Below are positions 42,055 through 56,216 of a stretch of DNA of 64,000 nucleotides, piece after piece. Position numbers and translations under genes: made by a program. The stretch covers positions 1 through 64,000 of the forward strand of contig ONFF01000016.1 of NCBI GenBank assembly GCA_900317055.1, in the 5' to 3' direction. Each line of letters begins with the position of its first letter. The first letter of the stretch is position 1. This stretch comes from an uncultured Bacteroidales bacterium. GTDB taxonomy: Bacteria; Bacteroidota; Bacteroidia; Bacteroidales; F082. The notes below the pieces were generated by a model, which ran no database searches, was not told the DNA's origin, and was given only the letters and a program-made list of their open reading frames with translations.

Positions 42055-42890
42055 GGTTGTTGTTGATTTACGGTATCAGGACTTTCAATGTTATGTTTTG
42101 CACAGAGCAGGCCGATGTGCGCGGCTTCTTCGATGGTAGCTTCGGGACCAGCATGGATGATGCCTGCCATAAGTGCGTCGCCGGCGCCTGTGGCATTCAC
42201 CACATGGCAAGGCAGAGCAGGAAAATGTTGTTTAGTATCGTCTTCAACGACCTCCAAACCATCCGCTCCAAGGCTGACAAATCGCCTATCGACACATTGC
42301 AAGTCGGCAAGGATGGAGTGTTCAATCCGATTGCATTTGAGTGTGAAGAAACGCTTTTTGACCGACATCGCCACGGCCTCTTTGATTATGGCGGCCTTGG
42401 CCCCCGAAACGGCATCCACATAGAGCGGCTTGTCGGTATGGTCGATGAGATAGGCCAAAGTCTCCACGGGGATGTTGGCATCGGCCACGAAGGCATCGAC
42501 ATCGCCCAACTGTTCCATTTTGGGGGCCAGCCATTCGGGAGTGATGCCATCGGCAGCAGCCATATCCGCCACGCCACCGACCATCTCGCCGTTGCAGTCG
42601 TTGATGCTCAAGAAACAAGAGCGTGCACCTGGGACGGCATAGTCGCAGAGGCTGATGTCGATGTGGGCTTTACGGCAACTTTCAGCGGTGAAACGACCAA
42701 ACTCATCGCCGCCGAACAAGGTCAGAAAGACGACCTCATCGCCCAACAGTGCAAGGTTATGGGCGATGTTGCGCCCTACCCCACCCGCCATCAGGCGCAC
42801 CGTGCCGGGGTTGGAGTCGCCAGGCACAAAGGCACTAAAGCTCGTGGCGATGATGTCGGCATTCGCTCCGCCGATTACACAGATTCTCAT
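42051..42890 (-). CDS. psuK: PfkB-family carbohydrate kinase, probable pseudouridine kinase
   Basis: PsuK phosphorylates pseudouridine at the 5' position. At 279 aa it is a compact ribokinase-fold protein with the start MRICVIGGANADIIATSF, the PfkB glycine pair in RLMAGGVGRNIAHNLALLGD, and the catalytic NATGAGDALMAGI with the base Asp. The assignment to pseudouridine rests on the tight coupling to psuG; fold alone would allow other nucleoside or sugar substrates. A -7 box is at 42927-42934. Upstream lies the first copy of the accessory-island element, pointing the other way. Confidence 0.88.
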   Translation of the reverse strand: MRICVIGGANADIIATSFSAFVPGDSNPGTVRLMAGGVGRNIAHNLALLGDEVVFLTLFGGDEFGRFTAESCRKAHIDISLCDYAVPGARSCFLSINDCNGEMVGGVADMAAADGITPEWLAPKMEQLGDVDAFVADANIPVETLAYLIDHTDKPLYVDAVSGAKAAIIKEAVAMSVKKRFFTLKCNRIEHSILADLQCVDRRFVSLGADGLEVVEDDTKQHFPALPCHVVNATGAGDALMAGIIHAGPEATIEEAAHIGLLCAKHNIESPDTVNQQQP

Positions 42891-42975: not shown

Positions 42976-43021
42976 AAGCTTGTGCCGTGATTCGGCACAG
43001 GCTTTTGTTTCCTTTGCAGCG
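42976..43021 (+). promoter_or_regulatory. island element, copy 1
   Basis: Stem GCTTGTGCC / GGCACAGGC, then TTTTGTTTCCTTTGCAGCG. It stands upstream of the PLD-like gene. The gene to its left (psuK) runs the other way, so this copy has no rightward transcript to terminate. That argues for a promoter, operator or mobile role rather than a plain terminator. Confidence 0.75.
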
Positions 43022-43063
43022 TGAAAACTGCAATTGCAACCTCCACATTCAGGGAACTTATGC

Positions 43064-43071
43064 TATTTTTG
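43064..43071 (+). promoter_or_regulatory. second -7 box before the PLD-like gene
   Basis: TATTTTTG followed by CATT, 22 nt before ATG 43094. It lies downstream of island element copy 1, so this gene has two candidate promoters. Confidence 0.55.
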
Positions 43072-43093
43072 CATTATTAAACAAACAACAACC

Positions 43094-43609
43094 ATGTTGA
43101 AACTCATCACTGATTCTGCCCATTACACCGAGGTCCTTGCCCGAGTCCCCAAGGTCAAGCGCAGCCTCTGGATTGGCACTGCCGACATCAAAGACTTGTA
43201 CGTCAAGGTCAGCACGCAAACGAAGCCCTTCCTTGCAGTATTGGCGCAGCTCATCAAAAAAGGTGTGGAAGTGCGGCTCATCCATGCCAAGGAGCCGGGT
43301 CCCGCGTTTCGTGAGGACTTCGACAAATACCCCGCCTTGTTTGAAGGCTTGGAGCGAGTGCTTTGTCCAAGGGTGCATTTCAAGATCTTGGTCTTCGATG
43401 GCCAAGTGGCCTATATTGGCAGCGCCAACCTTACTGGCGCAGGCATTGGAATGAAAGGCGATGGTACGCGCAACTTCGAGGCCGGCATCCTCACCGACAA
43501 TCCCGAGCTGGTTGAGCAGGCCATGAACCAATTTGATGAGGTTTGGATTGGGAAGCACTGCAAGGCATGTAAACGGAAAGATTTTTGTGGGGATCCAATA
43601 GCACTTTAA
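43094..43609 (+). CDS. single-domain phospholipase D-like (HKD) nuclease-type protein
   Basis: The PLD superfamily includes Nuc and BfiI-type DNases as well as lipases. The HKD motif is complete: HFKILVFDGQVAYIGSANLT (HxK, x4, D, x6, GSxN) at about residues 99-118, followed by the usual FEAG. At 171 aa there is one HKD, so a dimer would form the site, as in Nuc. The C-terminus has four Cys (CKACKRKDFC with an upstream GKH) that may bind zinc. The chosen ATG follows the -7 box at 43064; the longer frame from 43034 would include the promoter. The ATPase gene begins 2 nt later. Confidence 0.82.
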   Translation: MLKLITDSAHYTEVLARVPKVKRSLWIGTADIKDLYVKVSTQTKPFLAVLAQLIKKGVEVRLIHAKEPGPAFREDFDKYPALFEGLERVLCPRVHFKILVFDGQVAYIGSANLTGAGIGMKGDGTRNFEAGILTDNPELVEQAMNQFDEVWIGKHCKACKRKDFCGDPIAL

Positions 43610-43611
43610 TC

Positions 43612-44343
43612 ATGAGCAACATCTATCTCGCTGAAATTGTCAATCTTCATGAGCCTGGCCCAAGCGATGGCTATCCGTTTAATATCCCTGCCATTAAGAG
43701 TTTGAGGTCATTAAGCTTTACCACCGATGTGACCTATTTCATTGGGGAAAACGGTAGTGGCAAGTCAACCTTGTTAGAGGCCATCGCCATCAAAATGGGG
43801 ATGAATGCCGAGGGCGGTGGACGGAATTTCAATTTCAGCACCAATGCGACCCATTCAAACTTGGAGGAAGAACTGAAATGTGTAAGGACTCCTTATCGCC
43901 TTTACGATAATTTCTTCTATAGGGCTGAAAGTTTCTACAATGCCGTTACCTATCTTGAGAGCCTCAAAGGTTGGGGAAACCCATTTTTTGCATACGGCGG
44001 CGAAAGCCTTCACCATTGTAGTCATGGCGAAGGAATGGTTCGCTTGATTGAAAATCGATTGGAATGTGGCTTCTATGTATTTGACGAACCCGAAGCCGCT
44101 TTGTCGTATCAAAACCAATTGAGGTTCTTATTGTGGATGCACCGGGCCGTGAAATCGGGCAGTCAACTGATTGTCAGCACCCACTCGCCGGTCCTTCTCG
44201 CTTATCCAGGAGCGGCGATTTATCATCTGAATGCCGAAGGCATTACCAAGACATCCTTCGAGGATAGCTATATCTATAACGACATGCGGTCGTTTGTCAA
44301 CAATGTATCTTTAGTTCAAAAAGAGCTCGGCCTTTTGGATTGA
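43612..44343 (+). CDS. AAA/ABC-type ATPase, RecF/OLD-like
   Basis: This 243-aa ATPase has Walker A GENGSGKSTLLEAI, a signature-like GGESLHHCSHGE, Walker B FYVFDEPEAALS and the D-loop/His segment LIVSTHSPVLLAYPGA. The layout matches small stand-alone AAA_21/AAA_23-like ATPases related to OLD and RecF proteins, found in housekeeping and anti-phage modules alike. It has no TOPRIM or nuclease domain; the PLD protein 2 nt upstream could provide one. The two genes form the first cassette of the island. Confidence 0.85.
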   Translation: MSNIYLAEIVNLHEPGPSDGYPFNIPAIKSLRSLSFTTDVTYFIGENGSGKSTLLEAIAIKMGMNAEGGGRNFNFSTNATHSNLEEELKCVRTPYRLYDNFFYRAESFYNAVTYLESLKGWGNPFFAYGGESLHHCSHGEGMVRLIENRLECGFYVFDEPEAALSYQNQLRFLLWMHRAVKSGSQLIVSTHSPVLLAYPGAAIYHLNAEGITKTSFEDSYIYNDMRSFVNNVSLVQKELGLLD

Positions 44344-44363
44344 AAAAAAACTAGTGCTCTATT

Positions 44364-44407
44364 AGCCTGTGCTTCAATTCGGCACAGGCTTTTGTTTTCT
44401 TTGCGGC
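44364..44407 (+). promoter_or_regulatory. island element, copy 2
   Basis: AGCCTGTGCTTCAATTCGG followed by CACAGGC, then TTTTGTTTTCTTTGCGGC. It ends 27 nt before the ATG at 44435 and starts 20 nt after the ATPase stop. Confidence 0.8.
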
Positions 44408-44434
44408 ATCGTTTAACCCATAAAACTAACAAAC

Positions 44435-44656
44435 ATGAGCAAAGTATTCAAAGTATGGCCCAAGCGGGTCAAAAGAGTGAACGGCACGGTGCTTACACCC
44501 GAAATGGTCATCATTGTGACCATCCCCATGCATGTTTCCAATCCCTTCAGCAATGGAGCCAAGGAAATCAAGGAAACTTACATGCGCATCTACCAGTTCG
44601 ACTACCAGAAAGCCAACTGCTATCAGTCAGATTTCAATTATATGGCGTTAGATTAG
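44435..44656 (+). CDS. small hypothetical protein, 73 aa
   Basis: I do not recognise it. It is basic at the start (MSKVFKVWPKRVKRVNG), has a beta-like middle (MVIIVTIPMHVSNPF) and a Tyr-rich end (TYMRIYQFDYQKANCYQ). There is no signal peptide. It directly follows island element copy 2, which supports the ATG, and its base use resembles the PLD cassette more than the AT-rich genes after it. The competing frame at 44392-44676 runs through the promoter element and is rejected. It could be an accessory or antidote protein; that is speculation. Confidence 0.6.
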   Translation: MSKVFKVWPKRVKRVNGTVLTPEMVIIVTIPMHVSNPFSNGAKEIKETYMRIYQFDYQKANCYQSDFNYMALD

Positions 44657-44724
44657 ACAATAAGAAACACCTCTAAAGAAATCATCTATTTGTACAAGAT
44701 TTTTAGTTGGGTAGAAAAAAAACA

Positions 44725-44732
44725 TACTTTTG
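44725..44732 (+). promoter_or_regulatory. -7 promoter box of the DUF262 pair
   Basis: TACTTTTG followed by TAATC, 28 nt before ATG 44761. This is the one multi-gene cassette of the island with an internal promoter distinct from the shared element. Confidence 0.55.
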
Positions 44733-44760
44733 TAATCGTTTATTGATAATACCAAATACA

Positions 44761-46479
44761 ATGGCATGGATTGATCAGAATTTAGAGAATTTCATAAGAA
44801 ATACTTTTCCAGAGCGTAAGGTATCTGCCCGCCATGAGTATCGCACATGGCAGTCAAGCAGATACCTTTATGTTACAACAATCTTAAAAGATGATGAAGA
44901 ACTGCATTACGAATATATATGCGATGCCGTTGAACTTCATTTAGAAGGAAAATATCAAAGTGCAGATTATAAGTATTTTGCAAAAGAATTAAGATTCCAA
45001 ACATCTCGAAACCCAAAATTAACTTGGTTGGGGTGGCAGGGTAGGAATCAGTGCAGATGCAGAATAAACGCTCCTACACAAAGCCGGGACGAACTTGTTT
45101 GTGCGTTTAAAGAAATAATGAGCATTTTTGACCCCATTATTGATAAAATAAGCCATCGAACTACGGTAAATCCAAATGTTGAGCCTTATAAAGGTGAAAC
45201 GGTTTTTCGTGAAGAGGGGCTCGATGATGATGAAGTATGTTTGGCAACGTGTTCCTTAGGAAAATTGTTTGGAAACAATCTTGTTATTCCTAACTATCAA
45301 AGGAATTATTGCTGGGAAGACAAACAGGTTAAAGCATTATGGGAAAGCCTAAAAGAAATTCCACAAAGAGGGGAATATCATCTGGGTACAATAATTCTAC
45401 AAAAAGATAAGAGCGGCAATTATTCTGTGATTGACGGACAACAAAGATTGGTAACATTGACGCTAATTGTTAGAGAATTGAATTACAAAGGACCGTTGCC
45501 GTTGTTGTCACAAAAATTTCTATCTGAAAACTCAAAAAAACACATTGCGAATAGTAGATGGTTGATAAAACATCTAACAGCAAGAGCTTATGATGAATCC
45601 CTATGTAGCAGAATAATAAACCAGCTAATCTTCACGGTGCTTATTTTGAAAGAGAGCCGTTTGGATTTGGCATATACGTTTTTTTCAAATGAAAATTCTA
45701 AGGGTGTCCCTTTATCTGACTATGATCTCTTAAAAGCGCACCATTTACGCTATATTTTTATTGAAAAACAAGCAGAGCACTTAGCTGGAAGATGGAATGA
45801 ATTGATAGAACACGAATATCCTTCATTAAACAGCACACTCGCTACACATTTGTATAGATTAAGAAAATGGATGAGGAAAAAGAGCTTTAATCCTGAAGAG
45901 CGTTATTGTGTAAAAGAAGAGTTCTCTTCAGCTATTATTCTTCCTGAAATTCCTCCTTTTGGAGAAAGATTTAACTTTTACGAGAAAATACAAGGCGGCT
46001 CTCATTTTTTCGCATATGCAGAGCATTTTGTAAATAAGTTCAAGTTGTACTCAGAGACACGTCAAGTCAAAACTTTAAGAAATCATCTCAAATGGGAATC
46101 ACATTGGAAATATGCAGATATTATTGAAACACTACTCTTCGGCTATTATCTGAAATTTGGCGAACAGTATTTGACAGAAGCTCTTTTCTGCATATCTGGA
46201 TTAATAGCACAGCATAGATACGAAGCCAGTCACGCCCTGGCTTATAAGATAAGAGAATATGCTAAAGACTCTGAAATAATAATGATGATTGATCAAGCTT
46301 CTTCTCCCACTTTCTTCTTAGCCGAATGTGTTACTTCCATTAAAAAGAACGGAAGAGACGTTGATGAGCAAGGAATTGCAATGAGATTCTATCAGCATTT
46401 ACAAGACATGTTCTCTGAACTTTATAATGACTTTACAGATTCAACCATTATTGATAAGTACAACAATGAATACGTATAG
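44761..46479 (+). CDS. DUF262 (GmrS-like) protein with novel N-terminal domain
   Basis: DUF262 is a ParB-like nucleotide-using domain of type IV restriction enzymes such as GmrSD and of SspE and BrxU. Here it starts at about residue 160: VIPNYQRNYCWEDKQVKALW, then the nucleotide motif YSVIDGQQRLVTLTLI. The first ~150 residues (FIRNTFPERKVSARHEYRTW, LTWLGWQGRNQCRCRI) form a separate domain that I cannot name. I see no DUF1524 HNH motif at the C-terminus of this 572-aa protein. Base composition is clearly more AT-rich than the core genes. It overlaps the next DUF262 gene by 14 nt, so the two act together. Confidence 0.85.
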   Translation: MAWIDQNLENFIRNTFPERKVSARHEYRTWQSSRYLYVTTILKDDEELHYEYICDAVELHLEGKYQSADYKYFAKELRFQTSRNPKLTWLGWQGRNQCRCRINAPTQSRDELVCAFKEIMSIFDPIIDKISHRTTVNPNVEPYKGETVFREEGLDDDEVCLATCSLGKLFGNNLVIPNYQRNYCWEDKQVKALWESLKEIPQRGEYHLGTIILQKDKSGNYSVIDGQQRLVTLTLIVRELNYKGPLPLLSQKFLSENSKKHIANSRWLIKHLTARAYDESLCSRIINQLIFTVLILKESRLDLAYTFFSNENSKGVPLSDYDLLKAHHLRYIFIEKQAEHLAGRWNELIEHEYPSLNSTLATHLYRLRKWMRKKSFNPEERYCVKEEFSSAIILPEIPPFGERFNFYEKIQGGSHFFAYAEHFVNKFKLYSETRQVKTLRNHLKWESHWKYADIIETLLFGYYLKFGEQYLTEALFCISGLIAQHRYEASHALAYKIREYAKDSEIIMMIDQASSPTFFLAECVTSIKKNGRDVDEQGIAMRFYQHLQDMFSELYNDFTDSTIIDKYNNEYV

Positions 46480-48229
46480 ATATACACCAAAAAAGGTTGT
46501 AGAAGAAAACCTATATTTTTCCATCCCTCTTTATCAACGTTTGTTTTCATGGGGAGAGGAACAAATCAAGGGCTTGCTGTATGACTTAAAGAATCATTTT
46601 GATCCGTCTAATGACGATGGCACGCCATATTATTTGGGTATGTTATCTTGTATAAAATCAAATGACCGCTATGATTTAATTGACGGTCAGCAGCGATTTA
46701 CGGTTATGACCATTTTTGCAATAATCTTTCGAGATTATTATAAAGAATGGGATGGTTTTTTAGATGAAGGGAAAAGGCTAAAATTCATTTCTAGAACCAA
46801 AGATAACGAGTATCTTGCTGCTGTAATAAACGGGCAAACCGAAGTCTTTGATGCAAACAGAAGAATGGATGAAGGCAAGAAATCAATAGCAGATTTCATG
46901 ATTTCGCAATTCTCAACAGGAGAATTGCGAACAACCTTTGCAAAGAATGTTTTCAATAGAATGTCTTTTTTCTTTTCAGAGTTGCCATCTTCATACGTTA
47001 CCAATCCTTCATCGTTAAACAAATACTTTGAGGCAATGAATGCTGGCGGAAAAGGATTGGAACAACATGAAATTTTAAAAGTCAGGTTATTACAAGGTGA
47101 GGAAAACAAAGAACATCTTACACGAATTTGGAATGCAGTATGTGAACTTAATCGCCCGGTAATAAAAAGAAACGATGTAGATACAGAAGAAGATTACCGT
47201 TCAAAGTATAAACAAGCAATTAGTTTGTGCAGAAACAACAGATTTGAAGAAGCATTTGATTTATGTGAGGATTCTTATGATTCTGAAGATAATAATGAAA
47301 TAGGGAGCATTGGAGCCAAACAATATGATTTTAAACAGTCCTTAGTTGAAACAGGGGAACGGTGTTTAATCTCTTTCCCCGATTTTCTAATGATGGTTAT
47401 AGATTTACACCAAAACTTATCGGGATCATACTCATTTTATAGGAAAGAACTACTAAACATTTATGACTCACATCCAATTGACAACAAGCAAGACTTTTAT
47501 GATCAATTGCTTTTCTATCGATTGCTTCTTGATTATTACATTGTTTTTAAAGAAGGCGATGAGTCGGCTAATAAGTATGATTTGATTTTCAAAGCAGGTA
47601 CCTCGGCTGAAGCGTTGAAACAATACCAATCAATGCTGTATGTTTCCCAAACACCATTTTATAATTGGCTGAAGCCCACGCTTGAGAAACTGCACAATAA
47701 GCCTGCTCAAGATACAAATCAATTGTTGAAATGGATCAAACATATTGACAATTCATTACATGCTCTCCCTAAAGATATCGATGAAATGACTTATGATAAG
47801 GGTATAGATAGGTACTGGTTCTGGCGATTGGATTATTACTTATGGGAGCATAATAAGGATTATTTCACGGAAGAAGAGGAAAGACAGATTGTAGATGAAT
47901 ATGTTTTTAGAGCAAATCGTTCAATAGAACATCTTCATCCACGAAATCAGGAACACAATGATGAGTGGAATATTGAAGACATACATTCCTTTGGAAATCT
48001 AGCCATGATTTCTCAAAGCTTCAATTCACAACAAAGCGATGACCCTGTTACAGTAAAATTCGCAAGAATTATGGACCAGGCTAATAATCACGCACTTCAG
48101 AGTATTAAAATGTACAGAATGTATCTTGATGCTCAAAAGTCACCATCAGGTTGGAAAGTTGATGTAAAAAATAGCCATCAAGCGAAGATGTATGATTTAT
48201 TGGTTAAGTCATACATGATTGAAGAATAA
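46466..48229 (+). CDS. DUF262 - DUF1524 protein, GmrSD-like
   Basis: At 587 aa it has the full GmrSD layout in one chain. DUF262 at the N-terminus shows FSIPLYQRLFSWGEEQIKGL and RYDLIDGQQRFTVMTIFAII. A helical linker follows, then a DUF1524-type HNH region near 480-540 with SIEHLHPRNQEHNDEW and HSFGNLAMISQSFNSQQ. GmrSD cuts modified phage DNA with NTP use. The start overlaps the preceding DUF262 gene by 14 nt; the longer frame from 46427 overlaps still more and adds non-family residues. A perfect hairpin follows at 48258-48285. AT-rich, suggesting transfer. Confidence 0.87.
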   Translation: MNTYRYTPKKVVEENLYFSIPLYQRLFSWGEEQIKGLLYDLKNHFDPSNDDGTPYYLGMLSCIKSNDRYDLIDGQQRFTVMTIFAIIFRDYYKEWDGFLDEGKRLKFISRTKDNEYLAAVINGQTEVFDANRRMDEGKKSIADFMISQFSTGELRTTFAKNVFNRMSFFFSELPSSYVTNPSSLNKYFEAMNAGGKGLEQHEILKVRLLQGEENKEHLTRIWNAVCELNRPVIKRNDVDTEEDYRSKYKQAISLCRNNRFEEAFDLCEDSYDSEDNNEIGSIGAKQYDFKQSLVETGERCLISFPDFLMMVIDLHQNLSGSYSFYRKELLNIYDSHPIDNKQDFYDQLLFYRLLLDYYIVFKEGDESANKYDLIFKAGTSAEALKQYQSMLYVSQTPFYNWLKPTLEKLHNKPAQDTNQLLKWIKHIDNSLHALPKDIDEMTYDKGIDRYWFWRLDYYLWEHNKDYFTEEEERQIVDEYVFRANRSIEHLHPRNQEHNDEWNIEDIHSFGNLAMISQSFNSQQSDDPVTVKFARIMDQANNHALQSIKMYRMYLDAQKSPSGWKVDVKNSHQAKMYDLLVKSYMIEE

Positions 48230-48257
48230 TAGCTTTGTTGCAATGAAAATCCACTAA

Positions 48258-48285
48258 GTTGTATTTTTAGTGTGAAAAATACAAC
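48258..48285. terminator. perfect 11-bp hairpin after the DUF262 pair
   Basis: GTTGTATTTTT, loop of 6, AAAAATACAAC. It is 29 nt after the stop. AT-rich and without a T tail, so either a weak terminator or a protein site. Island element copy 3 follows 8 nt later. Confidence 0.55.
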
Positions 48286-48293
48286 AGCCAGAA

Positions 48294-48338
48294 AGCCTGT
48301 GCCTAAATTCAGCACAGGCTTTTGTTTTCTTTGCAGCG
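48294..48338 (+). promoter_or_regulatory. island element, copy 3
   Basis: AGCCTGTGCCTAAATTCAG followed by CACAGGC, then TTTTGTTTTCTTTGCAGCG. It is 57 nt before ATG 48396. The 3' half is identical to copies 2 and 4 over most bases. Confidence 0.8.
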
Positions 48339-48395
48339 AAAAACGGGCGAATTGACAAATATGACAAACCACAAACATCATTAAATCAATAAAAT

Positions 48396-49067
48396 ATGGA
48401 AAACAACAGATATGCAAACATCGATAAAGGCTCAATTGTCGAAGAAGGCGTCTTCGTAAGATTTCCCGAACTCGTTCCTGCTTCTTTAGACAATTATTGG
48501 AACAGCAAGAAGCATAAAAAGCTGTTGATAGTTGGGGAAAGCAACTACTTTGAGGATGATGTCGACAGCGTGTTTAAGGACCCAAAAGCGTGGTATTCGG
48601 GAGCGGACAAACATCATTTGATACCAGAAGGAAAGAAGAAAGATGTAAGCAACTACAAAGGATATAAGACTTTTGATAGGTTGTGTAAATCCATGAATGA
48701 AGTGTTGAACGAAACACTTTGTGAGCATGTCTATGAGGAGGCCATGTTCTATAATTATTTTCTGCGTCCAGCTACGGTGAGAAAAAACAATAGATCATTC
48801 AAAAAAGACTGCACCCAATTAGACCGTGATGTGGCAGGTAGCGCATTATGTGGAATTATCGACCTTGACCGTCCTGATGTAGTTATATTCGTCAGTAAAT
48901 ATGCACACTCAGAATTCAGGAAGTACATGGAATCGAACGGATTGTCATATAATATCCCGATTGATTTCGTCAATCATCCTGCACATCCTGCCTCATGGCA
49001 TCACAGAAACGGAAACGGGAAACAGAAGTTCGAAAGACTCTTGAGGGAACACTGGATAGCCAAATAA
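48396..49067 (+). CDS. uracil-DNA-glycosylase-fold-like protein, 223 aa
   Basis: The strand-loop KLLIVGESNYFED near residues 42-54 and the closing FVNHPAHPASWHHRNGNGKQ near 190-209 resemble the GES/HP(S/A) motifs of UDG-superfamily proteins, where the first binds the water or base and the second contacts DNA. The typical catalytic GQDPYH is absent, so enzymatic activity is uncertain. VVIFVSKYAHSEFRKYM looks like the central beta strand and helix. I name only the fold likeness; the family is otherwise unknown to me. It heads the third cassette under island element copy 3. A role in sensing odd bases or nucleotides in defence is speculation. Confidence 0.6.
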   Translation: MENNRYANIDKGSIVEEGVFVRFPELVPASLDNYWNSKKHKKLLIVGESNYFEDDVDSVFKDPKAWYSGADKHHLIPEGKKKDVSNYKGYKTFDRLCKSMNEVLNETLCEHVYEEAMFYNYFLRPATVRKNNRSFKKDCTQLDRDVAGSALCGIIDLDRPDVVIFVSKYAHSEFRKYMESNGLSYNIPIDFVNHPAHPASWHHRNGNGKQKFERLLREHWIAK

Positions 49068-49106
49068 TTACATTTTTTCAATCCCTGTTTGTTTCATAGA
49101 AATGTT

Positions 49107-49114
49107 TACCTTTG
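49107..49114 (+). promoter_or_regulatory. -7 promoter box before the mini zinc-ribbon gene
   Basis: TACCTTTG followed by CTGC, 56 nt before ATG 49171. Confidence 0.45.
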
Positions 49115-49170
49115 CTGCAAATATCATCTTGGCATTGTGCCTACAAGTGCAAAACCCAACCTGGCCGCCC

Positions 49171-49281
49171 ATGAAAAACTACCAATGCAAGAAATGTGGC
49201 ATACTGTTGTATACCTCAAAATTGCCCAATGCATTTGACTGCCCTTCGGGAGGGTATCATCAGTGGAATAAGATGAATTGA
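49171..49281 (+). CDS. mini zinc-ribbon protein, 36 aa
   Basis: A tiny open frame reads MKNYQCKKCGILLYTSKLPN and then AFDCPSGGYHQWNKMN. CxxC near residues 6-9, CP at 24-25 and His at 30 could bind one zinc. I have seen similar 35-40-residue proteins with a CxxCG..CPxGGxHxW pattern in Bacteroidetes. It lies 3 nt before the PD-(D/E)XK nuclease gene and behind a -7 box, so it may be co-expressed with the nuclease. No function can be stated. Confidence 0.6.
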   Translation: MKNYQCKKCGILLYTSKLPNAFDCPSGGYHQWNKMN

Positions 49282-49284
49282 AGT

Positions 49285-50490
49285 ATGGGTACAAAAACTA
49301 TCTCTATGGAAAGTATGGATAAGAACAAATTATCTGCTTGGTTGAAGTTCGCAAGTGGGTTTTCAAAAGCAAAGCAAGAGGAGCAAGTAAAACTACCTTT
49401 TCACATGAACTTGATAGACCAGTTACACATCAATGAAAATGCACATAGTAGAATAATGATGTGTCTGTTATCCTATAAGAATGAAGAAGGAAAATATGTT
49501 TTTTTGACTTCTTTAATAGACCTAATTAAAAAGGAAAAGCAAAAGGAAGATTACGAAAATATAAGTGTTGTATCGCCAAGAATCAGCCAAGAAAAAGAAC
49601 GCATTGATTTATGGATCATGGATAAGGATTATGCCATTATTTTTGAGAACAAAATCTATAATGCAGCTGATCAAGAAGCACAATTGAGTCGTTACATTGT
49701 GAAAACCATTAATCATGGATATAACGAGCACCACATTTATATCGTTTATCTTTCGCAATACCCTAAAGAGCCAGAGCAGCAATCGTGGGGCGAATATAAA
49801 GATAGTTTTCGTTCAAGATATGTAAATTTGTCCTTTTGCTATGACATTTTACCATGGCTAAAAGACAAAGTGTTGTCAAATATCAACCACAAAGAACTAT
49901 TTCTTCAGACAGCTATCATTCAATATATTGATTATCTCGAAGGATTATTCAAAATTAGAAACATAGACAAACCAATGAACATGGAATTAAACAAACTAAT
50001 TGAACAACATTTTAAGTTGTCGGATGAAAGTGCGAAAGACAAAATACGGATTATCCAAAAGCCAGCACAAGAAATTGATGACCTCTCTTCTCAAATGAAG
50101 GCTCTATTGGAAAGTTATCGCCAAAACATATACGAAACATGGAAAAAGAAAACAAAGGAAAATTACTCTGGATTGAATCCTAATAAAAAAAGTGAGGCTG
50201 CTGCTGGATGGCCAATAACAGATGTAACATTTAATGACATAGATGGGAAAACAGCTGTCGTTTATATCGGTTGTGATGGGACTCAGTTTTATAGTGGTTT
50301 CTACTTTGACTTTAATCAGTCCGATGAAGATAGAAAACTTCAAGGACCAACAGTAGAGAAGCTTAAGAAGCATCTGTCGCAAACCAATGACATAAAACAA
50401 ATGTTTGAAAGTTTTGATAACGACCAATTTGATGAAGTATATCAGCATTTCGAAGAAACTATTGCCATTGTCAAAGATAATGACAATTAG
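49285..50490 (+). CDS. PD-(D/E)XK nuclease-superfamily protein
   Basis: The N-terminal half has the family layout of PD-(D/E)XK nuclease-like proteins. NENAHSRIMMCLLSYK is a recognisable lead-in, followed by RIDLWIMDKDYAIIFENKIY with the Asp and the ExK (E-N-K) of the active site, and DQEAQLSRYIVKTI. At 401 aa, the C-terminal half (from about 230) is helical with an unknown role. Such proteins often occur in defence islands. ATG 49285 is chosen; ATG 49315 (MDKNKLSAWL) is possible. AT-rich codons match the DUF262 genes. Island element copy 4 begins 32 nt after the stop. Confidence 0.8.
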   Translation: MGTKTISMESMDKNKLSAWLKFASGFSKAKQEEQVKLPFHMNLIDQLHINENAHSRIMMCLLSYKNEEGKYVFLTSLIDLIKKEKQKEDYENISVVSPRISQEKERIDLWIMDKDYAIIFENKIYNAADQEAQLSRYIVKTINHGYNEHHIYIVYLSQYPKEPEQQSWGEYKDSFRSRYVNLSFCYDILPWLKDKVLSNINHKELFLQTAIIQYIDYLEGLFKIRNIDKPMNMELNKLIEQHFKLSDESAKDKIRIIQKPAQEIDDLSSQMKALLESYRQNIYETWKKKTKENYSGLNPNKKSEAAAGWPITDVTFNDIDGKTAVVYIGCDGTQFYSGFYFDFNQSDEDRKLQGPTVEKLKKHLSQTNDIKQMFESFDNDQFDEVYQHFEETIAIVKDNDN

Positions 50491-50522
50491 GTTTTTTAGC
50501 TAACTATACTCACATTTCCCCA

Positions 50523-50566
50523 AGCCTGTGCTTTAATTCGGCACAGGCTTTCTTTTTCTTTGCAGC
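50523..50566 (+). promoter_or_regulatory. island element, copy 4
   Basis: AGCCTGTGCTTTAATTCGG followed by CACAGGC, then TTTCTTTTTCTTTGCAGCG. It ends 18 nt before ATG 50585. The 12-nt middle differs from copy 2 by one base. Confidence 0.8.
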
Positions 50567-50584
50567 GTTAAATCGTAAAACACT

Positions 50585-51253
50585 ATGACCATACAAGAAA
50601 TTTACAACTCACAGCCCGTCAGGAAGGTGGAGTACATGATTCTCGACTGTCAGCGACAGAGCGAGAAAGGCATGTGGGGCATGGAAACAGGAAGAGTAGC
50701 CATCCAAAACCTTTTGAGCATCAGGAAAACCATCTTGAACGAAATGTTCGTGATGGAAGACTATTATTTGCAACTGCTCAATGACTTCAACGAGGCCATG
50801 AAGCAACAGATGATAGAGATGCGCAAACGCACTATAGCGCTTTATGAGTCGGTGGCCAAAGCAGGATTGCCAGGAACCATCGAAGTGGAAGGCAAATGCT
50901 ATTTCGGCTACGACTATCCTTCGTTGCATCCCATTCAAGACGAACGCGCCAAACGGATGTGGGACATGCTAAATGGAACAATCGATGACTTTATCCCCTT
51001 GTACAGTGACGGATTCGGGCAATTCCGAATTGACACCTATCATTCCCCCGTCCCAACAATAGAATCCGAACATCAAATGCTCTATTTGAGTGAAGAAACG
51101 GACAATTGGAACGAGGGTTTAGACGAAAAACTGACAAAAGACATGCATCTTATATTCGCATTCCACGACCTTTTCGAGCACATGGAATTCGCCATTTTTG
51201 ACCTCCTTTGGGTGCGCGACTTTAATATCGAACTGAATGTTGAAATCTCATAA
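50585..51253 (+). CDS. hypothetical protein, first gene of the mini-FtsZ cassette
   Basis: I do not recognise this 222-aa protein. It is helical and acidic, with a likely coiled-coil part (ETGRVAIQNLLSIRKTILNE, then DYYLQLLNDFNEAMKQQMIE) and a C-terminal half rich in aromatic residues (MHLIFAFHDLFEHMEFAIFD). There is no signal peptide or catalytic motif. It follows island element copy 4 by 18 nt and precedes the FtsZ-like gene by 12 nt, so the two are very probably made together. It may be a structural partner of the GTPase; that is inference from position. Confidence 0.65.
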   Translation: MTIQEIYNSQPVRKVEYMILDCQRQSEKGMWGMETGRVAIQNLLSIRKTILNEMFVMEDYYLQLLNDFNEAMKQQMIEMRKRTIALYESVAKAGLPGTIEVEGKCYFGYDYPSLHPIQDERAKRMWDMLNGTIDDFIPLYSDGFGQFRIDTYHSPVPTIESEHQMLYLSEETDNWNEGLDEKLTKDMHLIFAFHDLFEHMEFAIFDLLWVRDFNIELNVEIS

Positions 51254-51265
51254 CAACGCAATACT

Positions 51266-51928
51266 ATGAACAAAAAAGCAACCTCAACGGCAAAGTCAAC
51301 CGTTAAAGTAATCGGCATTGGCTGTGGCGGCAACAATATCGTCAACCATATAAGCCAAAGCAATTTGGAAGGTTTCTCCTTTGTGGCCTGCGACATGGAT
51401 GCCAAGGTTCTTGAGAAATCAGTAGCCGCCACGACCCTACAACTCGGCACAGACGGACTTGGAAGCGGCAATAGCCCCGAAAAAGCACGCATCGCAGCTA
51501 AAGAAAACACAGATGCAATAAAGAAACTATTCGACGACAAACCTTCAATGGCCTTTGTTGTCACCTGTCTTGGAGGTGGATGCGGCACGGGGGCTGCTCC
51601 CGTAATCGCCCGTGAGTCAAAAAAGATGGGCATCACGACCGTTGTCCTTGCCACCTTGCCATTCGAATTGGAAGGCGAACGCAGATTCTCGCAAGCCTCG
51701 GAAGGAATTCAAAACTTGGCAAGAAACGCGGATGCCCTCTTTCTTCTCAACAACCAGTACATCAAAGAACAATACTGCGACTTGCCCATAAACCAAGCCT
51801 TCGCAAAGGCCGATGACCTGTTGGCGGAAGTAGCAAAATGCCTAATCCGTTCCATGACAGAGCCACAACAAGCAACAAAGAGAATCTCAAGAATAAAGGA
51901 GTTTTTCAAAAGACTGAAATGCAAATAA
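51266..51928 (+). CDS. shortened FtsZ/tubulin-like GTPase, 220 aa
   Basis: The FtsZ GTP-binding fold is clear: VIGIGCGGNNIVNHI at about 15-29 (FtsZ has GVGGGGxNAVNxM), then the tubulin signature as LGGGCGTGAAPVIAR at residues 102-116 (GGGTGTG in FtsZ, with T changed to C here), LPFELEGERRFSQASEGI and a degenerate LFLLNNQYI. The protein stops at 220 residues, before the T7 synergy loop (NxDFxD) and the C-terminal domain that FtsZ needs for GTP hydrolysis between subunits; the tail is basic (ISRIKEFFKRLKCK). So it probably binds GTP but cannot form normal FtsZ filaments. Neighbours are two unknown genes. It may act as a sensor or interfere with FtsZ; inference. Confidence 0.85.
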   Translation: MNKKATSTAKSTVKVIGIGCGGNNIVNHISQSNLEGFSFVACDMDAKVLEKSVAATTLQLGTDGLGSGNSPEKARIAAKENTDAIKKLFDDKPSMAFVVTCLGGGCGTGAAPVIARESKKMGITTVVLATLPFELEGERRFSQASEGIQNLARNADALFLLNNQYIKEQYCDLPINQAFAKADDLLAEVAKCLIRSMTEPQQATKRISRIKEFFKRLKCK

Positions 51929-52359
51929 AAGCGATGGCATCGAAATCATTCAACACGGCAACTATCGCCCGCCTGCTCAATCACGAGGACGAGCAAGGCA
52001 TGGGGCGCGTCTTCATGTATGCTTTCCTTAACGAAGTGGTACGCCAAAAACGACCATTCCCGTTCGATTGTGAATCCGCCCAAGTAAGCCCTAACTTGAT
52101 GATTGTTGACAGCCAAGGTAGAAGCATCGCCGTTGAACATAGGCGCAATCGGCTTAGTTTAACCCTCAACGACCAACGAAGTGAAACTTCCGCATTCATC
52201 GAATACAAAGGTGAAGCCTATCGCCGAGTCCTTCTTGATTGGCTTACAACCTGCATCCGATACACTTCGCTGCAACCTGAACTTCGCAAAGAACTAACAA
52301 GATATGCCCAATCCATTCAAAGAAGAATTTGGTTTACAAAAGTTTTGCCTGTGCATTAA
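51919..52359 (+). CDS. hypothetical protein after the mini-FtsZ gene
   Basis: I do not recognise this protein of about 146 aa. It contains KSFNTATIARLLNHEDEQGM and FPFDCESAQVSPNLMIVDSQ and ends in a basic helical part (RYAQSIQRRIWFTKVLPVH). ATG 51919 overlaps the GTPase stop; ATG 51934 (MASKSFNT) is equally plausible, and the 51838 start of the longest frame lies deep in the GTPase gene. Its last four codons lie within the stem of island element copy 5, so the element and the gene end have fused. Third member of the cassette. Confidence 0.6.
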   Translation: MQIKAMASKSFNTATIARLLNHEDEQGMGRVFMYAFLNEVVRQKRPFPFDCESAQVSPNLMIVDSQGRSIAVEHRRNRLSLTLNDQRSETSAFIEYKGEAYRRVLLDWLTTCIRYTSLQPELRKELTRYAQSIQRRIWFTKVLPVH

Positions 52360-52390
52360 TTCGGCACAATCTTTTTGTTATCTTTGCAGC
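52347..52390 (+). promoter_or_regulatory. island element, copy 5
   Basis: GCCTGTGCATTAATTCGG followed by CACAATC, then TTTTTGTTATCTTTGCAGC. The right arm is partly degraded, while the -7 box is a perfect TATCTTTG (52379-52386). It ends 14 nt before the RhuM ATG and overlaps the 3' end of the preceding gene. Confidence 0.75.
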
Positions 52391-52404
52391 ATAAAACTAG
52401 CCCC

Positions 52405-53396
52405 ATGGAAAACCAAATCGTCATATACCAAACCGACAACGGCCAAACTGCCATCGATGTAAGGCTGGAAAATGAAACCATATGGTTGACTCAGGCTCAA
52501 ATGGCTGAGCTGTTTCAGAAAGACAGAACTGTTATCGGGCGTCATATTCGCAATGTTTTCAAAGAAGGAGAATTGGACGAAAAAGTGGTATGTGCAAAAT
52601 TTGCACATACCACTCGTCATGGTGCTATTGAAGACTTAATGCAAACTCAGGAAGTGGTTCTTTACAACCTCGATGTCATCATCTCCGTAGGCTATCGTGT
52701 GAAAAGCCAACGCGGTGTGCAATTCCGCCAATGGGCCAATAAAGTGCTGAAAGACTATCTGCTGAAAGGCTACGCCGTGAATGAGAAGATTCGCCGAAAC
52801 CAAATCGGGGAACTAAGGCAATTGGTGCAAATGGTGGGTCGGACACTGCAAAATCAGCCCTTGCTGAAAAACGAAGAGAACCAAGCCTTGTTTGACATTG
52901 TAGTCGATTACACCTACGCCCTCGACACGCTTGACGATTACGATTATCAACGGTTAGGAGTAAAAGAAACCACGCAAGAGGAGAAGTTTCAGGCGACATA
53001 CGATAACGCCATTCAAGCCATAGCGGCATTACGCGAGAAGTTCGGAGGCAGTTCGCTGTTCGGCAATGAAAAAGACGACTCTTTCAAAAGCAGTATTGGT
53101 CAAATCTATCAGACTTTTGGCGGTGAAGACCTATATCCGAGCGTGGAAGAGAAAGCGGCTATGCTGCTGTATCTCGTCACCAAAACCATTCGTTCAGCGA
53201 CGGTAACAAACGCATTGCCGCAACGCTGTTCCTGTGGTTCCTCAACAACAACGGCATCCTCTACCGCGAGGACGGCAGCAAACGCATAGCCGACAACACC
53301 TTGGTAGCACTGACCTTGATGATTGCCGAGAGCAAACCCGAGGAGAAGGATGTAATGGTGAAAGTGGTGGTGAACCTTATCAATCAGAAAAACTAA
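52405..53396 (+). pseudogene. RhuM-family protein with C-terminal Doc/Fic domain, frameshifted
   Basis: The N-terminal ~260 residues match the RhuM (virulence RhuM) family: YQTDNGQTAIDVRLENETIW, LTQAQMAELFQKDRTVIGRH, VVCAKFAHTTRHG and YNLDVIISVGYRVKSQRGVQ. After the A-run at 53182-53185 the frame is lost: the first frame ends at 53289 with a low-complexity Ser/Thr/Ala tail. Reading one base back restores NHSFSDGNKRIAATLFLW, a Doc-type HxFxDGNxR motif, and continues to a stop at 53394-53396, 5 nt before the WYL gene. So one A is missing from a homopolymer. This may be a true null, phase variation, ribosomal slippage or a sequencing error. Intact length would be about 330 aa. Confidence 0.85.
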
Positions 53397-53401
53397 AAAC
53401 C

Positions 53402-54310
53402 ATGTCCAAAAACCAAATCAACAAATACGTCTGGCTCGTAAAGACGCTCTACCATGCCAAGAAAATCACTCTAAAGGAAATCAACCGCCGGTGGCTCGAT
53501 ACTGATTTGAGCGAGGGCCTGGAGATTCCACGCCGCACGTTCCACACCTGGAAGAACGCGGTGGAAGATATGTTCGGCCTCGTCATCATGTGCGACAAGA
53601 GCGACGGCGACCGCTATTACATCGAGAACCGCGAGGTGCTTGAGGACGATGGCCTGCAACGCTGGCTGCTCAGCACCATGTCGGTCAACAACACGCTGTT
53701 GGAAAACAAGTCGCTCAGCGACCGTATCCTTTTGGAAAGCATCCCATCGGGTCAGGACTTCCTTGCCTCAGTCATGGAAGCCATGAAGAAAAACCGTTTG
53801 CTTGAAATCACCTATAAAGGCTTTTGGAGCGAAAGCGAGCACACCTTCCCCGTGGCGCCCTATTGCGTGAAGCTGTTCCGGCAGCGGTGGTACATGGTGG
53901 GCAACAGCGTCTACGAAGACAAGATCCGCATCTATTCCCTAGATCGCGTACTGAAAGCCCAATTATCGGAGAAGACCTTCAAATACCCCAAGAAATTCAA
54001 CCCAGAGAACTACTTCAAAGGCTGTTTCGGGATCATTCGCGATGAGGAATGTCCCATCGAGACCGTGAAGCTGAAAGTGAGCGCCGACCAAGCCAACTAC
54101 CTGCGTTCCTTGCCGTTGCATCCTTCACAAAAGGAGCTGGTGCATACAGGCGAATACAGCATCTTCTCCATCGAGGTGCGCCCCACCTTCGACTTCCAGC
54201 AAGAACTCCTTTGGAACGGCGACGCGCTTGAGGTAATGGAACCACTTTGGCTGCGTAAAGAGATGGCTGGCATGGTCAAACGGATGTGGGACAATTACAA
54301 CAAGAAATGA
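53402..54310 (+). CDS. WYL-domain transcriptional regulator
   Basis: WYL proteins sense ligands (often nucleic acid-related) and regulate genes; BrxR and CapW are examples that control anti-phage operons through inverted repeats. This 302-aa protein has an N-terminal winged-helix-like part (KKITLKEINRRWLDTDLSEG, IPRRTFHTWKNAVEDMFG) and a WYL-type domain at about 135-215 (LLEITYKGFWSESEHTFPVA, PYCVKLFRQRWYMVGNS, IRIYSLDRVLKA). A C-terminal WCX-like part follows. The ATG 53402 follows the RhuM end by 5 nt; the longer frame from 53234 is inside the frameshifted gene. It overlaps the exonuclease gene by 4 nt. It is the only obvious DNA-binding regulator of the island apart from RhuM. Confidence 0.85.
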   Translation: MSKNQINKYVWLVKTLYHAKKITLKEINRRWLDTDLSEGLEIPRRTFHTWKNAVEDMFGLVIMCDKSDGDRYYIENREVLEDDGLQRWLLSTMSVNNTLLENKSLSDRILLESIPSGQDFLASVMEAMKKNRLLEITYKGFWSESEHTFPVAPYCVKLFRQRWYMVGNSVYEDKIRIYSLDRVLKAQLSEKTFKYPKKFNPENYFKGCFGIIRDEECPIETVKLKVSADQANYLRSLPLHPSQKELVHTGEYSIFSIEVRPTFDFQQELLWNGDALEVMEPLWLRKEMAGMVKRMWDNYNKK

Positions 54311-54801
54311 ACTCCTTCGCCGCTATAGACTTCGAGACCGCCAACAACGAGCGCACCAGTGTGTGCAGCGTCGGCGTGGTGATCGTGAAAGAGGGTGAGT
54401 TTGTGGACTCGTTCTATTCGCTTATTCAGCCTGAGCCGAATTATTACCTTTATTGGAATACAATGGTTCACGGTATTACCAAGGAGGACACCGAGGACGC
54501 CCCCGTGTTCCCGTATGTTTGGAAGCAAATTGAGCCGCTCATCGAAGGCTTGCCTCTCGTGGCGCACAATAGTCCTTTCGATGAAGGTTGCCTAAAGGCC
54601 GTGATGCGCTGCTACCAGATGGATTACCCCGACTATCAGTTCTACTGCACCTGTCGCGCCTCGCGCAAACACTTCGGGAAGTTGCTACCCAACCACCAGC
54701 TGCACACCGTGGCGGCAGCCTGCGGCTTCGATTTAATCAACCACCATAACGCCTTGGCCGATGCCGAGGCATGCGCTTGGATTGCACGGGAGATTTTGTA
54801 A
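54307..54801 (+). CDS. DEDDh 3'-5' exonuclease, DnaQ-like
   Basis: These enzymes remove nucleotides from 3' ends using two metal ions. The 164-aa protein has all acidic motifs: Exo I FAAIDFETANNERTSVCSVG (DxE), Exo II LVAHNSPFDEGCLKAV, and Exo III HNALADAEACAWI with the His and Asp of the DEDDh type. HTVAAACGFDL fits the bacterial exonuclease domain found in PolC/DinG-like proteins. It stands alone without a polymerase or helicase domain. ATG 54307 overlaps the WYL stop (ATGA), so the two are co-translated. A role in repair or RNA trimming is equally possible. Confidence 0.9.
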   Translation: MNSFAAIDFETANNERTSVCSVGVVIVKEGEFVDSFYSLIQPEPNYYLYWNTMVHGITKEDTEDAPVFPYVWKQIEPLIEGLPLVAHNSPFDEGCLKAVMRCYQMDYPDYQFYCTCRASRKHFGKLLPNHQLHTVAAACGFDLINHHNALADAEACAWIAREIL

Positions 54802-54805
54802 TTCC

Positions 54806-54950
54806 ATTCGGAATTTATTGTAGTTTTGCAGAAAATTCCGAATAGAAACGGTCATCAAATCGAAATTTATTGTAATTTTACAGAAAAATCGGAATAAAAT
54901 TGGTTTCAATTCGGAATTTATTGTAATTTTGCAGAAAATTCCGAATAAAA
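54806..54950. repeat. three tandem promoter-like repeats before the AAA ATPase gene
   Basis: A unit of about 43 bp occurs at 54806, 54858 and 54909. Copies 1 and 3 have ATTCGGAATTT, then TATTGTA(A/G)TTTTGCAG, then AAATTCCGAAT: a perfect 11-bp dyad around a TAnnTTTG-type box. Copy 2 is degraded (ATCGAAATTT, TAATTTTA). The last copy ends at the ATG 54951. Confidence 0.75.
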
Positions 54951-56216
54951 ATGGAACCAACTTATATCAAGCGCGAGACTTACCTCCAAAAACTCATCGA
55001 CCGAATGGACAATGGCGAAGTGAAAATCGTCACTGGTCCAAGGCGATGCGGAAAGTCGTGGCTCCTCAAGCGCATCTTCAAGGATTATCTGGTATACAAT
55101 GGTGTAGCCGAAGAAAGCATCATCATCGTTTCCTTCGACATGGATGACGAAGAAGAAATGTATGGCGACCTCACCGAGCGTGGCGCCTTGAAAGAGTTCC
55201 TTTACAGCCGCATCACTTCTCCAAAAACCAATTATTATGTCATTCTAGACGAAGTGCAAGAGGTGGAGGGTTTTGAAAAGATTGTCAACGGGCTGAATGC
55301 CAAGGACAATGTGGATGTTTACATCACTGGGAGCAATTCACACTTCCTTTCTTCCGACATCCGAACCATCTTCCGCGGTCGCGGTGATGAAGTGCGAGTT
55401 TATCCACTTTCATTCAAGGAGTTTTGCTCAAACAGGACCGAGCCTATTAACGAACTTTGGAAAGAATACTACACCTACGGAGGCATGCCCGGATTGCTCA
55501 ACCACCATACTCCCGAGCAGAAAGTGGCTTACTTGCAACGGCTTTGGAGCAAGACCTACCTTGACGATGTGGTGGAGCGCAATCATGTGAAAAACCGCGA
55601 GGCCCTTTCTGCGCTTGCCGATGCGCTATGTTCCTCCATCGGTTCCTTGACCAATCCCAACCGCATCAGCAATGTGCTGCAAAGTGTTCAAAAGACCAAA
55701 ATCGACCCAGAAACTGTTGGAAACTACATTGATTACCTTGAGGAAACCTTCCTTTTCGAAGGTGCAAAACGTTTTAATATCAAGGGAAACAAATATTTTG
55801 AAAGCATTAAGAAATACTATGCCGTCGATGTAGGACTACGCAATGCCAAACTCAATTTCCGTCAGCAAGAAATCACTCACATCATGGAAAATATCATATA
55901 TAATGAATTGAGGATGAAAGGTTTCAGCGTAGATGTGGGATTGGTGGAAAGTCGCGAAATGCGTGAAGGCAAGATGGCCTACATACAATATGAAATCGAC
56001 TTCATCGCACAAAACGGGATGGACAAGTACTATATCCAATCCGCCTTCAAGATGGACGATGCCGAAAAGCAAGAAAATGAAATCCGCTCGCTGCAAAAAG
56101 TGGACGACAGTTTCAAAAAAATCGTCATCACTGGAGACGACATCGCCACTTATACCGATACAAAAGGTATAGTTTTTATGGGATTATTTCAGTTTTTAAA
56201 GGGAGAATTATTATGA
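54951..56216 (+). CDS. AAA ATPase with DUF4143-like C-terminus
   Basis: Proteins of this type (AAA_14 plus DUF4143) are common in Bacteroidetes with unknown targets. Walker A is VTGPRRCGKSWLLKRI near residue 30, Walker B YYVILDEVQEVEGFEK near residue 101, sensor-like ITGSNSHFLSSD, and IRTIFRGRGDEVRVYPLSF. The DUF4143-like part (about 220-420) contains NYIDYLEETFLFEGAKRFNI and a PD-(D/E)XK-like remnant (ENIIYNELRMKGFSVDVGLV, YEIDFIAQ). At 421 aa it has the family length. It follows a triple promoter repeat and overlaps the carbonic anhydrase ATG by 4 nt. Function unknown. Confidence 0.88.
   Translation: MEPTYIKRETYLQKLIDRMDNGEVKIVTGPRRCGKSWLLKRIFKDYLVYNGVAEESIIIVSFDMDDEEEMYGDLTERGALKEFLYSRITSPKTNYYVILDEVQEVEGFEKIVNGLNAKDNVDVYITGSNSHFLSSDIRTIFRGRGDEVRVYPLSFKEFCSNRTEPINELWKEYYTYGGMPGLLNHHTPEQKVAYLQRLWSKTYLDDVVERNHVKNREALSALADALCSSIGSLTNPNRISNVLQSVQKTKIDPETVGNYIDYLEETFLFEGAKRFNIKGNKYFESIKKYYAVDVGLRNAKLNFRQQEITHIMENIIYNELRMKGFSVDVGLVESREMREGKMAYIQYEIDFIAQNGMDKYYIQSAFKMDDAEKQENEIRSLQKVDDSFKKIVITGDDIATYTDTKGIVFMGLFQFLKGELL

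Follow-up and report, generated by a model that had tools for sequence, protein, structure and literature searches.

An array of gene cassettes, each headed by the same element

The window analysed here is a stretch of 64,000 nucleotides of contig ONFF01000016.1 from an uncultured Bacteroidales bacterium (assembly GCA_900317055.1). It contains an array of defence-like gene cassettes, a palindromic element of about 45 bp that stands in front of each cassette, and a gene for a WYL-WCX transcription regulator near the end of the array. A preliminary description of this DNA had reported five near-identical elements, and all five were found within 2 bp of the positions it gave: copy 1 at 42976..43020 (palindrome 42978-43002, with one stem mismatch, then TTTTGTTTCCTTTGCAGC), copy 2 at 44363..44407 (palindrome 44365-44389), copy 3 at 48293..48337 (palindrome 48295-48319), copy 4 at 50522..50566 (palindrome 50524-50548) and copy 5 at 52345..52390 (palindrome 52347-52371). 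As had been described, all of the palindromes lie on the + strand and a co-directional gene set begins behind each. Behind every palindrome come a T-rich spacer and a CTTTGC(A/G)GC box, and the perfect 8-bp stem is matched by three of the five copies vs 0 matches in 100 dinucleotide shuffles. Copy 5, which precedes the RhuM and WYL genes, is a variant (GCCTGTGC-N9-GCACAATC) that has lost the outer bases of the right arm; its half-sites are kept and its -7 box (TATCTTTGC) is clear. The loop of copy 5 (52347-52371) supplies the TAA stop of the gene upstream, so that this copy is partly coding. Copy 1 does follow a gene of opposite direction, namely an ORF at 42051-42890 on the - strand that by eye we take to be a sugar kinase, and its left flank is resembled in loci L037 and L042. 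No known RNA was found in the window at the Rfam gathering score; one match, Thr_leader at 48229-48328 (E 0.05), was sub-threshold.

All of the cassette genes are read from the + strand. Cassette 1 (43094..44343) encodes a PLD-like protein (43094-43609; Pfam PF13091/PF00614) and an AAA ATPase (43612-44343; AAA_15/AAA_21), with DrmC-like and mad3/AriA/GajA-like matches in PADLOC, and its family recurs in loci L128 and L141. Cassette 2 (44435..48229) encodes a small DUF6140 protein (44435-44656; PF19637) and a GmrSD-type pair (44764-46479 and 46469-48229; PF03235, PF07510; PADLOC matches HEC-06/Orf5/SspE); what had been called a DUF262 pair is refined by Pfam to GmrSD_N, with GmrSD_C in the second protein. 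Cassette 3 (48396..50490), a member of family C02 (11 loci), comprises a protein at 48396-49067, a small ORF and a PD-(D/E)XK nuclease-like protein (49285-50490; PDDEXK_4, PF14281; PADLOC PDC-S26). The nuclease half of its earlier assignment stands, and the uracil-DNA glycosylase (UDG) half is not supported: the protein at 48396-49067, UDG-like by eye only, has no Pfam match, and UDG matched only another genome's protein of the same cassette type, below cut-off. Cassette 4 (50585..52359) encodes a 222-aa protein of no known family (50585-51253), a short FtsZ-like GTPase (51266-51928; PF00091; positions 12-212 of the 353 of TIGR00065, below the TIGR cut-off) and a weak PDDEXK_4 protein (~51919-52359; PF14281, below cut-off). 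Its family, C01, is found at 12 loci, not all with the three genes, and this FtsZ-like three-gene cassette is a possible candidate for an undescribed defence unit.

Behind copy 5 lie a RhuM-family protein (52405..53289; PADLOC PDC-S23), whose earlier identification as RhuM is borne out by PF13310 and which is 294 aa long here against a cluster median of 322 aa, the WYL-WCX regulator (53402..54310; PF13280 and PF25583), proposed as the reader of the element, and directly after it a DnaQ-like 3'-5' exonuclease (54307..54801; PF00929). The C-terminus of RhuM looks odd by eye (window 53230-53420), and an ORF in the WYL frame starts within RhuM; a frameshift is possible. Further on, at 54780-54960, two near-identical stretches around TTCGGAATTTATTGTAGTTTTGCAGAAA lie ahead of an ATPase ORF at 54951 and look like a further promoter repeat.

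The element is confined to the array in its own genome and recurs across the genus

The whole genome assembly to which the window belongs (3,525,557 bases, 32 contigs) was searched with at most two mismatches. The element was found at five places, all of them in the array; copy 3 was in addition matched in reverse, and the reversed-pattern control gave 0. The genome-wide search proposed in the preliminary description thus places the element in the array and not before many housekeeping genes, which rules out a dispersed housekeeping promoter. Across the genus (one genome per species, many assemblies incomplete) the pattern was present in 41 of 99 genomes, two of which (G012 and G028) rest on a single two-mismatch match each, and the control gave none in any genome listed. 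Scanned for the exact pattern, a species-genome collection returned 55 stretches, 53 of them from Bacteroidales/Bacteroidia assemblies (one labelled only 'bacterium F082'), several of which come from goat, yak or roe deer gut sites. The hosts of the element are largely ruminant-gut bacteria, and the single matches in Thiomargarita and Planctomycetota assemblies look like chance. A phage-borne repeat was ruled out by a scan of a viral contig collection, which returned 0 stretches.

Array architecture was examined in 60 stretches from among the genus matches listed, together with the window; this set does not include the G090, G093 and G097 arrays or the lone matches of G012 and G028. A 48-column gap-free profile of the element matched 155 times on 51 contigs of 36 genomes and 0 times in reversed sequence. 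Two of the 155 matches arise where a palindromic copy is also read on the opposite strand (24 bp apart); apart from these, each contig has one orientation. At least two elements were present on 41 of the 51 contigs, with a maximum of 11 (G070). The consensus reads A-GCCTGTGC-TTCAATTCG-GCACAGGC-TTTTGTTTTCTTTGCAGCGT, a frequency of 1.00 is reached in columns 3, 6, 18, 21 and 36, and conservation of the TTTGC box equals that of the stem. The 125 closed cassettes range from 313 to 6432 bp (median 1788), and 227 of their 234 ORFs of at least 120 aa, as called by a simple longest-ORF caller and no gene finder, are on the array strand; eight cassettes have no + ORF of 60 aa. The arrays occupy several loci: the window type lies between the WYL-exonuclease pair and two other ORFs, which by eye we presume to be psuG/psuK, and others stand beside different flanks.

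Pfam and PADLOC searches of representatives grouped the cargo into PLD plus ATPase, GmrSD-type proteins (in several cassettes), PD-(D/E)XK, RhuM and Nmad2/Nmad3, with HAD_SAK_2, IetA-like AAA, FtsK/SspH-like and MoxR-vWA-YgjP proteins besides. A PADLOC match at E of at most 0.001 was obtained for 12 of 20 proteins (WYL counted), two of them weak, and none for the FtsZ-like protein, its 222-aa neighbour, Nmad2 or Nmad3. Among 40 cassette and flank proteins scanned with Pfam, 10 had no family at E of at most 0.01 or, in the window set, sub-threshold matches only, and none matched SUKH; about 20 of the 40 had no match at all or weak ones only. By these matches, much of the cargo resembles anti-phage defence, although a family name does not by itself establish what a protein does. 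Small leader ORFs (DUF6140 at 44435-44656; families F022, F026, F027, F007 and F042) often stand directly behind the element with different genes next to them from genome to genome, and by this arrangement they appear as a second layer of modularity.

Exchange of cassettes at the element

Defence islands are known to be mosaic. Clustered by DNA, the cassettes form 17 recurring families, many of near-constant length, whose neighbours differ. Similarity was followed across 177 junctions (the profile matches plus the RhuM-type variant). Pairs with related upstream and unrelated downstream sequence remain similar to about +43 and are at background by about +44, and in pairs that are related downstream and unrelated upstream, similarity has fallen to background by -1. 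Two or more upstream partners were found for 21 of the 23 downstream clusters with more than one member, and two or more downstream partners for 17 of 26 upstream clusters. Because similarity is lost at the edges of the element and the clusters have multiple partners, the alignments indicate that cassettes are exchanged at the element. The earlier suggestion of exchangeable cassettes is therefore supported by a reciprocal loss of similarity, by recurring cassettes with varied neighbours and by their presence at several chromosomal loci. Cassette genes at least 97% identical between species made up 30 of 1019 pairs, and in 190 of 489 comparable pairs the cassette exceeded its flanks by more than 5 points; in the clearest case of high identity, an Nmad3 gene of G073 is 99% identical to those of G070 and G068, and the sole shared flank gene is 69% identical. 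No sharp crossover point within the element is claimed, since high-identity pairs (50 and 165) are mixed between about +8 and +41.

All units start with the same 45 bp, and exchange is accordingly placed at the element; we infer that the simplest account is homologous recombination through these 45 bases and through neighbours held in common. An unlikely alternative is that the element is mainly a recombination site, and that the array is integron-like or resembles the recombinase-associated rAID arrays, with a site-specific recombinase moving cassettes in trans at the hairpin. Exchange at the element, the single orientation, the recurrence of cassettes at several loci and the conservation of the stem and right side would all be expected of such a site. 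However, of the six tyrosine recombinase (PF00589) matches in the window's own genome none lies on the array contig (C24), in 14 array genomes none was found less than 10 kb from an array element (the nearest at about 12 kb, in G082; a good number of the contigs are short), and the genome's own PF00589 and Y1 proteins had no relative in 52 array loci, a search that did not include serine recombinases. The variable positions within the element, moreover, follow neither side sharply. An integron as such was rejected, the general PF00589 model having found no integrase on C24 or within 10 kb of array elements in the 14 genomes. Integron cassettes are defined by the attC core boxes RYYYAAC/GTTRRRY, and no such pair was seen in the 48-column consensus.

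The palindrome occupies the -33 region of a predicted promoter

Promoters of Bacteroidetes have the consensus TAnnTTTG, in which the G of TTTG is at -7. Counted from this consensus, the centre of the palindrome falls at -33 with a spacing that is fixed in the gap-free profile, and no TTTG-like -33 box is conserved. The stem had been proposed to cover the -33 region, and the position of its centre, the fixed spacing in the 48-column profile and the median distance of 30 bp from TTTGC to the first ORF of the 125 closed cassettes support that placement. A scan with a sigma-70 model, which is uninformative for this phylum, gave 23 sites vs 25.9 in shuffles.

Palindromes followed by T-rich sequence also recall intrinsic terminators, and the element could be the terminator of the cassette upstream, alike between copies by chance or gene conversion, with separate promoters downstream. 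The RNA hairpins of copies 1-4 are strong (-16.1 to -20.4 kcal/mol) and have a T-rich tail, and copies 1, 2 and 4 were listed as terminator-like. Copy 5, however, folds no better than shuffles (-5.6 kcal/mol, z +0.6) and lacks the GC stem with T-run that copies 1-4 have; like other RhuM-type copies, it is without the outer stem bases and retains the half-sites. Copy 1 lies behind a gene of the opposite strand, sequence is conserved beyond what pairing requires, with the TTTGC box conserved like the stem, and no T-run follows the palindrome in a related type (ACCTATGC..GCACATAT, described below). A terminator as the whole explanation is thus very improbable; a dual role of copies 1-4 as operator and terminator is possible.

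The WYL regulator as the predicted reader of the palindrome

The WYL protein has PF13280 at residues 120-187 and PF25583 at 220-295, both above cut-off. Its N-terminus has no Pfam HTH match and is modelled as helices at 3-19, 24-32 and 44-58 and strands at 62-65 and 71-74 (pLDDT of this block 61-91, mean of the model 62). Foldseek searches with this low-confidence model ranked DriD first, followed by PafBC, BrxR and CapW. In phmmer, DriD accounted for four of the five best matches (E 0.0004-0.0017) with PafBC next, and the BrxR entries of the fold search were absent from the 13 matches at E of at most 1. A close ortholog (at least 70% identity over at least 200 aa; genomes counted by hand) was present in 34 of the 41 element genomes vs 4 of the 58 others (Fisher p 2.8e-15). 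In all four of these others the gene lies near a contig end: in G091, G064 and G007 at most ~310 bp is available upstream, and in G038 a more diverged element precedes WYL. Outside the genus, family-wide, WYL matches were about 28-30% identical among the matches listed.

The element or a relative of it stands upstream of WYL in 40 of 50 loci. These include a diverged set, consisting of 20 loci whose WYL is 50-60% identical, none of them from a genome with an element match in the genus scan. In 19 of these 20 loci a relaxed scan (core TGTGC-N9-GCACA, at most two changes) showed, ahead of WYL and on its strand, a different palindrome with the same layout. A scan free of any stem sequence (a perfect stem of at least 7, then CTTTG; both strands) returned seven matches, six of which are such elements, in 6 of the 20 loci. 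The palindromes comprise ACATGTGC..GCACATGT, found with variants in nine genomes, AGGTATGC..GCATACCT in G047 and G048, ACCTATGC..GCACATAT in G002, G044, G043 and G050, and others. The first type occupies a single place in seven of its nine genomes, with the best copy before WYL; a second place with three mismatches lies elsewhere in G092 and G096, and G033 has two three-mismatch places near WYL. Its stem was found in none of G000, G052, G072 and G080. A further stem, GGTATGCC..GGCATACC, sought in G047, G048, G033 and G080, gave one perfect copy each in G047 and G048 and otherwise stayed at control level. In six of the nine loci of the ACATGTGC type the element and WYL are separated by relatives of cassette genes, and in 17 of the 20 diverged loci WYL is followed, in the same direction, by an exonuclease relative. 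In the diverged-WYL genomes the respective element type is present once or twice, and none of them showed an array, so that the element exists without cassette traffic, which speaks against its being mainly a recombination site. Over the 40 loci with an element, stem distance was correlated with WYL distance (r=0.69, reached by 0 of 5000 permutations; shared ancestry not removed).

A WYL paralog of 36-38% identity has a palindrome of its own, AACTCTGCC-N7-GGCAGAGTT; by hand count, 14 of its 22 places lie within about 3 kb upstream of the paralog, as do 12 of the 13 with at most one mismatch. Some of the other paralogs have further palindromes before TTTGC-type boxes and for others none was seen. 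At loci L228, L255, L252, L253, L240 and L241, palindromes of WYL paralogs (TGTTTCA..TGAAACA; GGTAGAACTATGC..; AACTCTGCC..) were seen before TTTGC-type promoters or operons.

The preliminary description had named the WYL protein as a possible reader of the stem, and the co-occurrence, the position of the element before WYL and the paired divergence of the two support this. Another factor, such as RhuM or a global regulator, might read the palindrome instead, and RhuM too is encoded in many arrays, behind the variant element. In several arrays and in the diverged loci, however, the element stands directly before WYL with no RhuM between, and some WYL paralogs have palindromes of their own, which makes a different reader decidedly unlikely. 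Altogether, sequence comparison argues, with a probability of about 0.76, that the element is the operator-promoter of the WYL regulator and that the gene sets are exchangeable units under this switch.

Several observations weigh against this reading. No element was found upstream in 10 of the 50 WYL loci, 8 of which have at most 1.5 kb of upstream sequence, and seven element genomes have no close WYL (G012, G021, G028, G041, G049, G056 and G087). One of these, G056, has a WYL of 55-56% identity beside GCCTGTGC-type elements, which breaks a strict pairing of one regulator with one stem. That the core is shared is in part a product of the relaxed scan, which required it to be TGTGC-like, and the species are related, so the co-occurrence and the Mantel test overstate independence. 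The plain count of AACTCTGCC-N7-GGCAGAGTT is not above its control (22 places in 18 genomes vs 34 reversed-pattern places in 21 genomes), and for this reason only its position near WYL counts. The WYL model is poor at its pLDDT of 62, with a TM of about 0.3 to its matches, and the strong folds of copies 1-4 have been noted above. Lastly, cassette genes are only slightly closer than flank genes (median identity 88% vs 86%). Because they are on average barely closer, the identities indicate that much of the cassette history is vertical or old, though exchange is real.

Proposed mechanism and direction of control

Under the operator-promoter reading, a WYL dimer would read the palindrome (core TGTGC-N9-GCACA) centred on -33, at a fixed distance from the -7 box, and would thereby control its own gene and every element-bearing cassette, including, in trans, the arrays at other loci. 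Each cassette would be a self-contained plug-in consisting of the common switch and defence-like genes, and the element would be where units pass from one array, locus or species to another, homologous recombination following DNA transfer being the simplest route. The binding, the use of the promoter and the direction of control are predicted from sequence. With regard to direction, a DriD-like activator responding to single-stranded DNA has slightly better than even odds and is favoured over a repressor because the -33 box under the palindrome is poor and no solved relative is closer than DriD; a BrxR/CapW-like repressor comes a little short of even. It is a tentative proposal that single-stranded DNA arising in infection or damage triggers a DriD-like WYL activator, which turns on the whole array as a plug-in regulon, and that the operator-promoter doubles as an acquisition seam. 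If so, an incoming unit with the seam would be under the switch from its arrival.

Comparison with known systems

Knowledge of how defence systems are regulated is stated to be lacking in the accessible text of two reports (PMC12255303, PMC9122601), and how newly acquired systems come under control is a largely open question, which the array addresses: control and exchange would share the same 45 bp, each defence unit carrying a copy of one regulator's switch. The sequence of the switch would predict the regulon, lead to more defence cassettes in relatives of this genome and supply natural pairs of regulator and operator whose changes match. The array is also a route to new defence genes, among them the FtsZ-like protein, its 222-aa neighbour, Nmad2 and Nmad3 (PADLOC-negative) and the DUF6140 leaders. 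In mostly open-access literature, largely titles and abstracts, on WYL or multi-operon control of defence and on integron-like or rAID arrays of Bacteroidetes, no description was recognised as this system.

The rAID polyimmunity arrays of Bacteroidales are defined, in the sections available of their description, by a predicted tyrosine recombinase and short orphan immunity genes (PMC12247911). They share with the present array the taxonomic order, co-orientation and conserved intergenic motifs. Here, however, the genomes checked show no recombinase closer than 10 kb to an array element, and the cassettes are 0.3-6.4 kb in length with restriction-like cargo. Assignment to rAID was rejected on these grounds, as there is no adjacent tyrosine recombinase and the scanned cargo consists of GmrSD, PLD, AAA, PD-(D/E)XK, Nmad and FtsZ-like proteins and not of short orphan immunity genes of type VI secretion systems.

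Binding of palindromes by WYL proteins has been reported for BrxR and CapW in defence promoters and for DriD over the -35 region, as far as the accessible texts describe it, and this supports the WYL reading. DriD, a WYL activator of Caulobacter, binds a 20-bp pseudo-palindrome (ATACGAC-N7-GTCGTAT) that overlaps -35 at a fixed distance from -10, at several promoters with poor -35 boxes; it has a site before its own gene and activates when holding single-stranded DNA (PMC12340889, available portions). The WYL protein, the palindrome over -33/-35 at a fixed spacing and the site before the regulator's own gene are common to both systems. The targets of DriD, however, are DNA-damage genes at several promoters and no exchangeable defence array, the half-sites differ, and activation is a feature of DriD. 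BrxR is a WYL regulator that, in the accessible part of its report, represses from a defence island and binds inverted repeats (11-5-11 bp), with two R-BOXes in the pEFER island (PMC9122601). It resembles the present case in its location in BREX/defence islands and in its inverted-repeat sites; the differences are that BrxR has two sites in that one island, whereas here there are five and a contig can have as many as eleven, every one in front of its own swappable cassette, and that the palindrome lies on -33, whereas the BrxR site in pEFER is just downstream of the predicted promoter. CapW, a dimeric wHTH-WYL repressor of CBASS, likewise combines a WYL regulator with a palindrome of 19-24 bp in a defence promoter, according to the available excerpt (PMC9122588), but its palindrome covers -10 and it serves one operon. 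Taken together, these likenesses would place the array among the WYL-controlled defence islands, as a variant of them.

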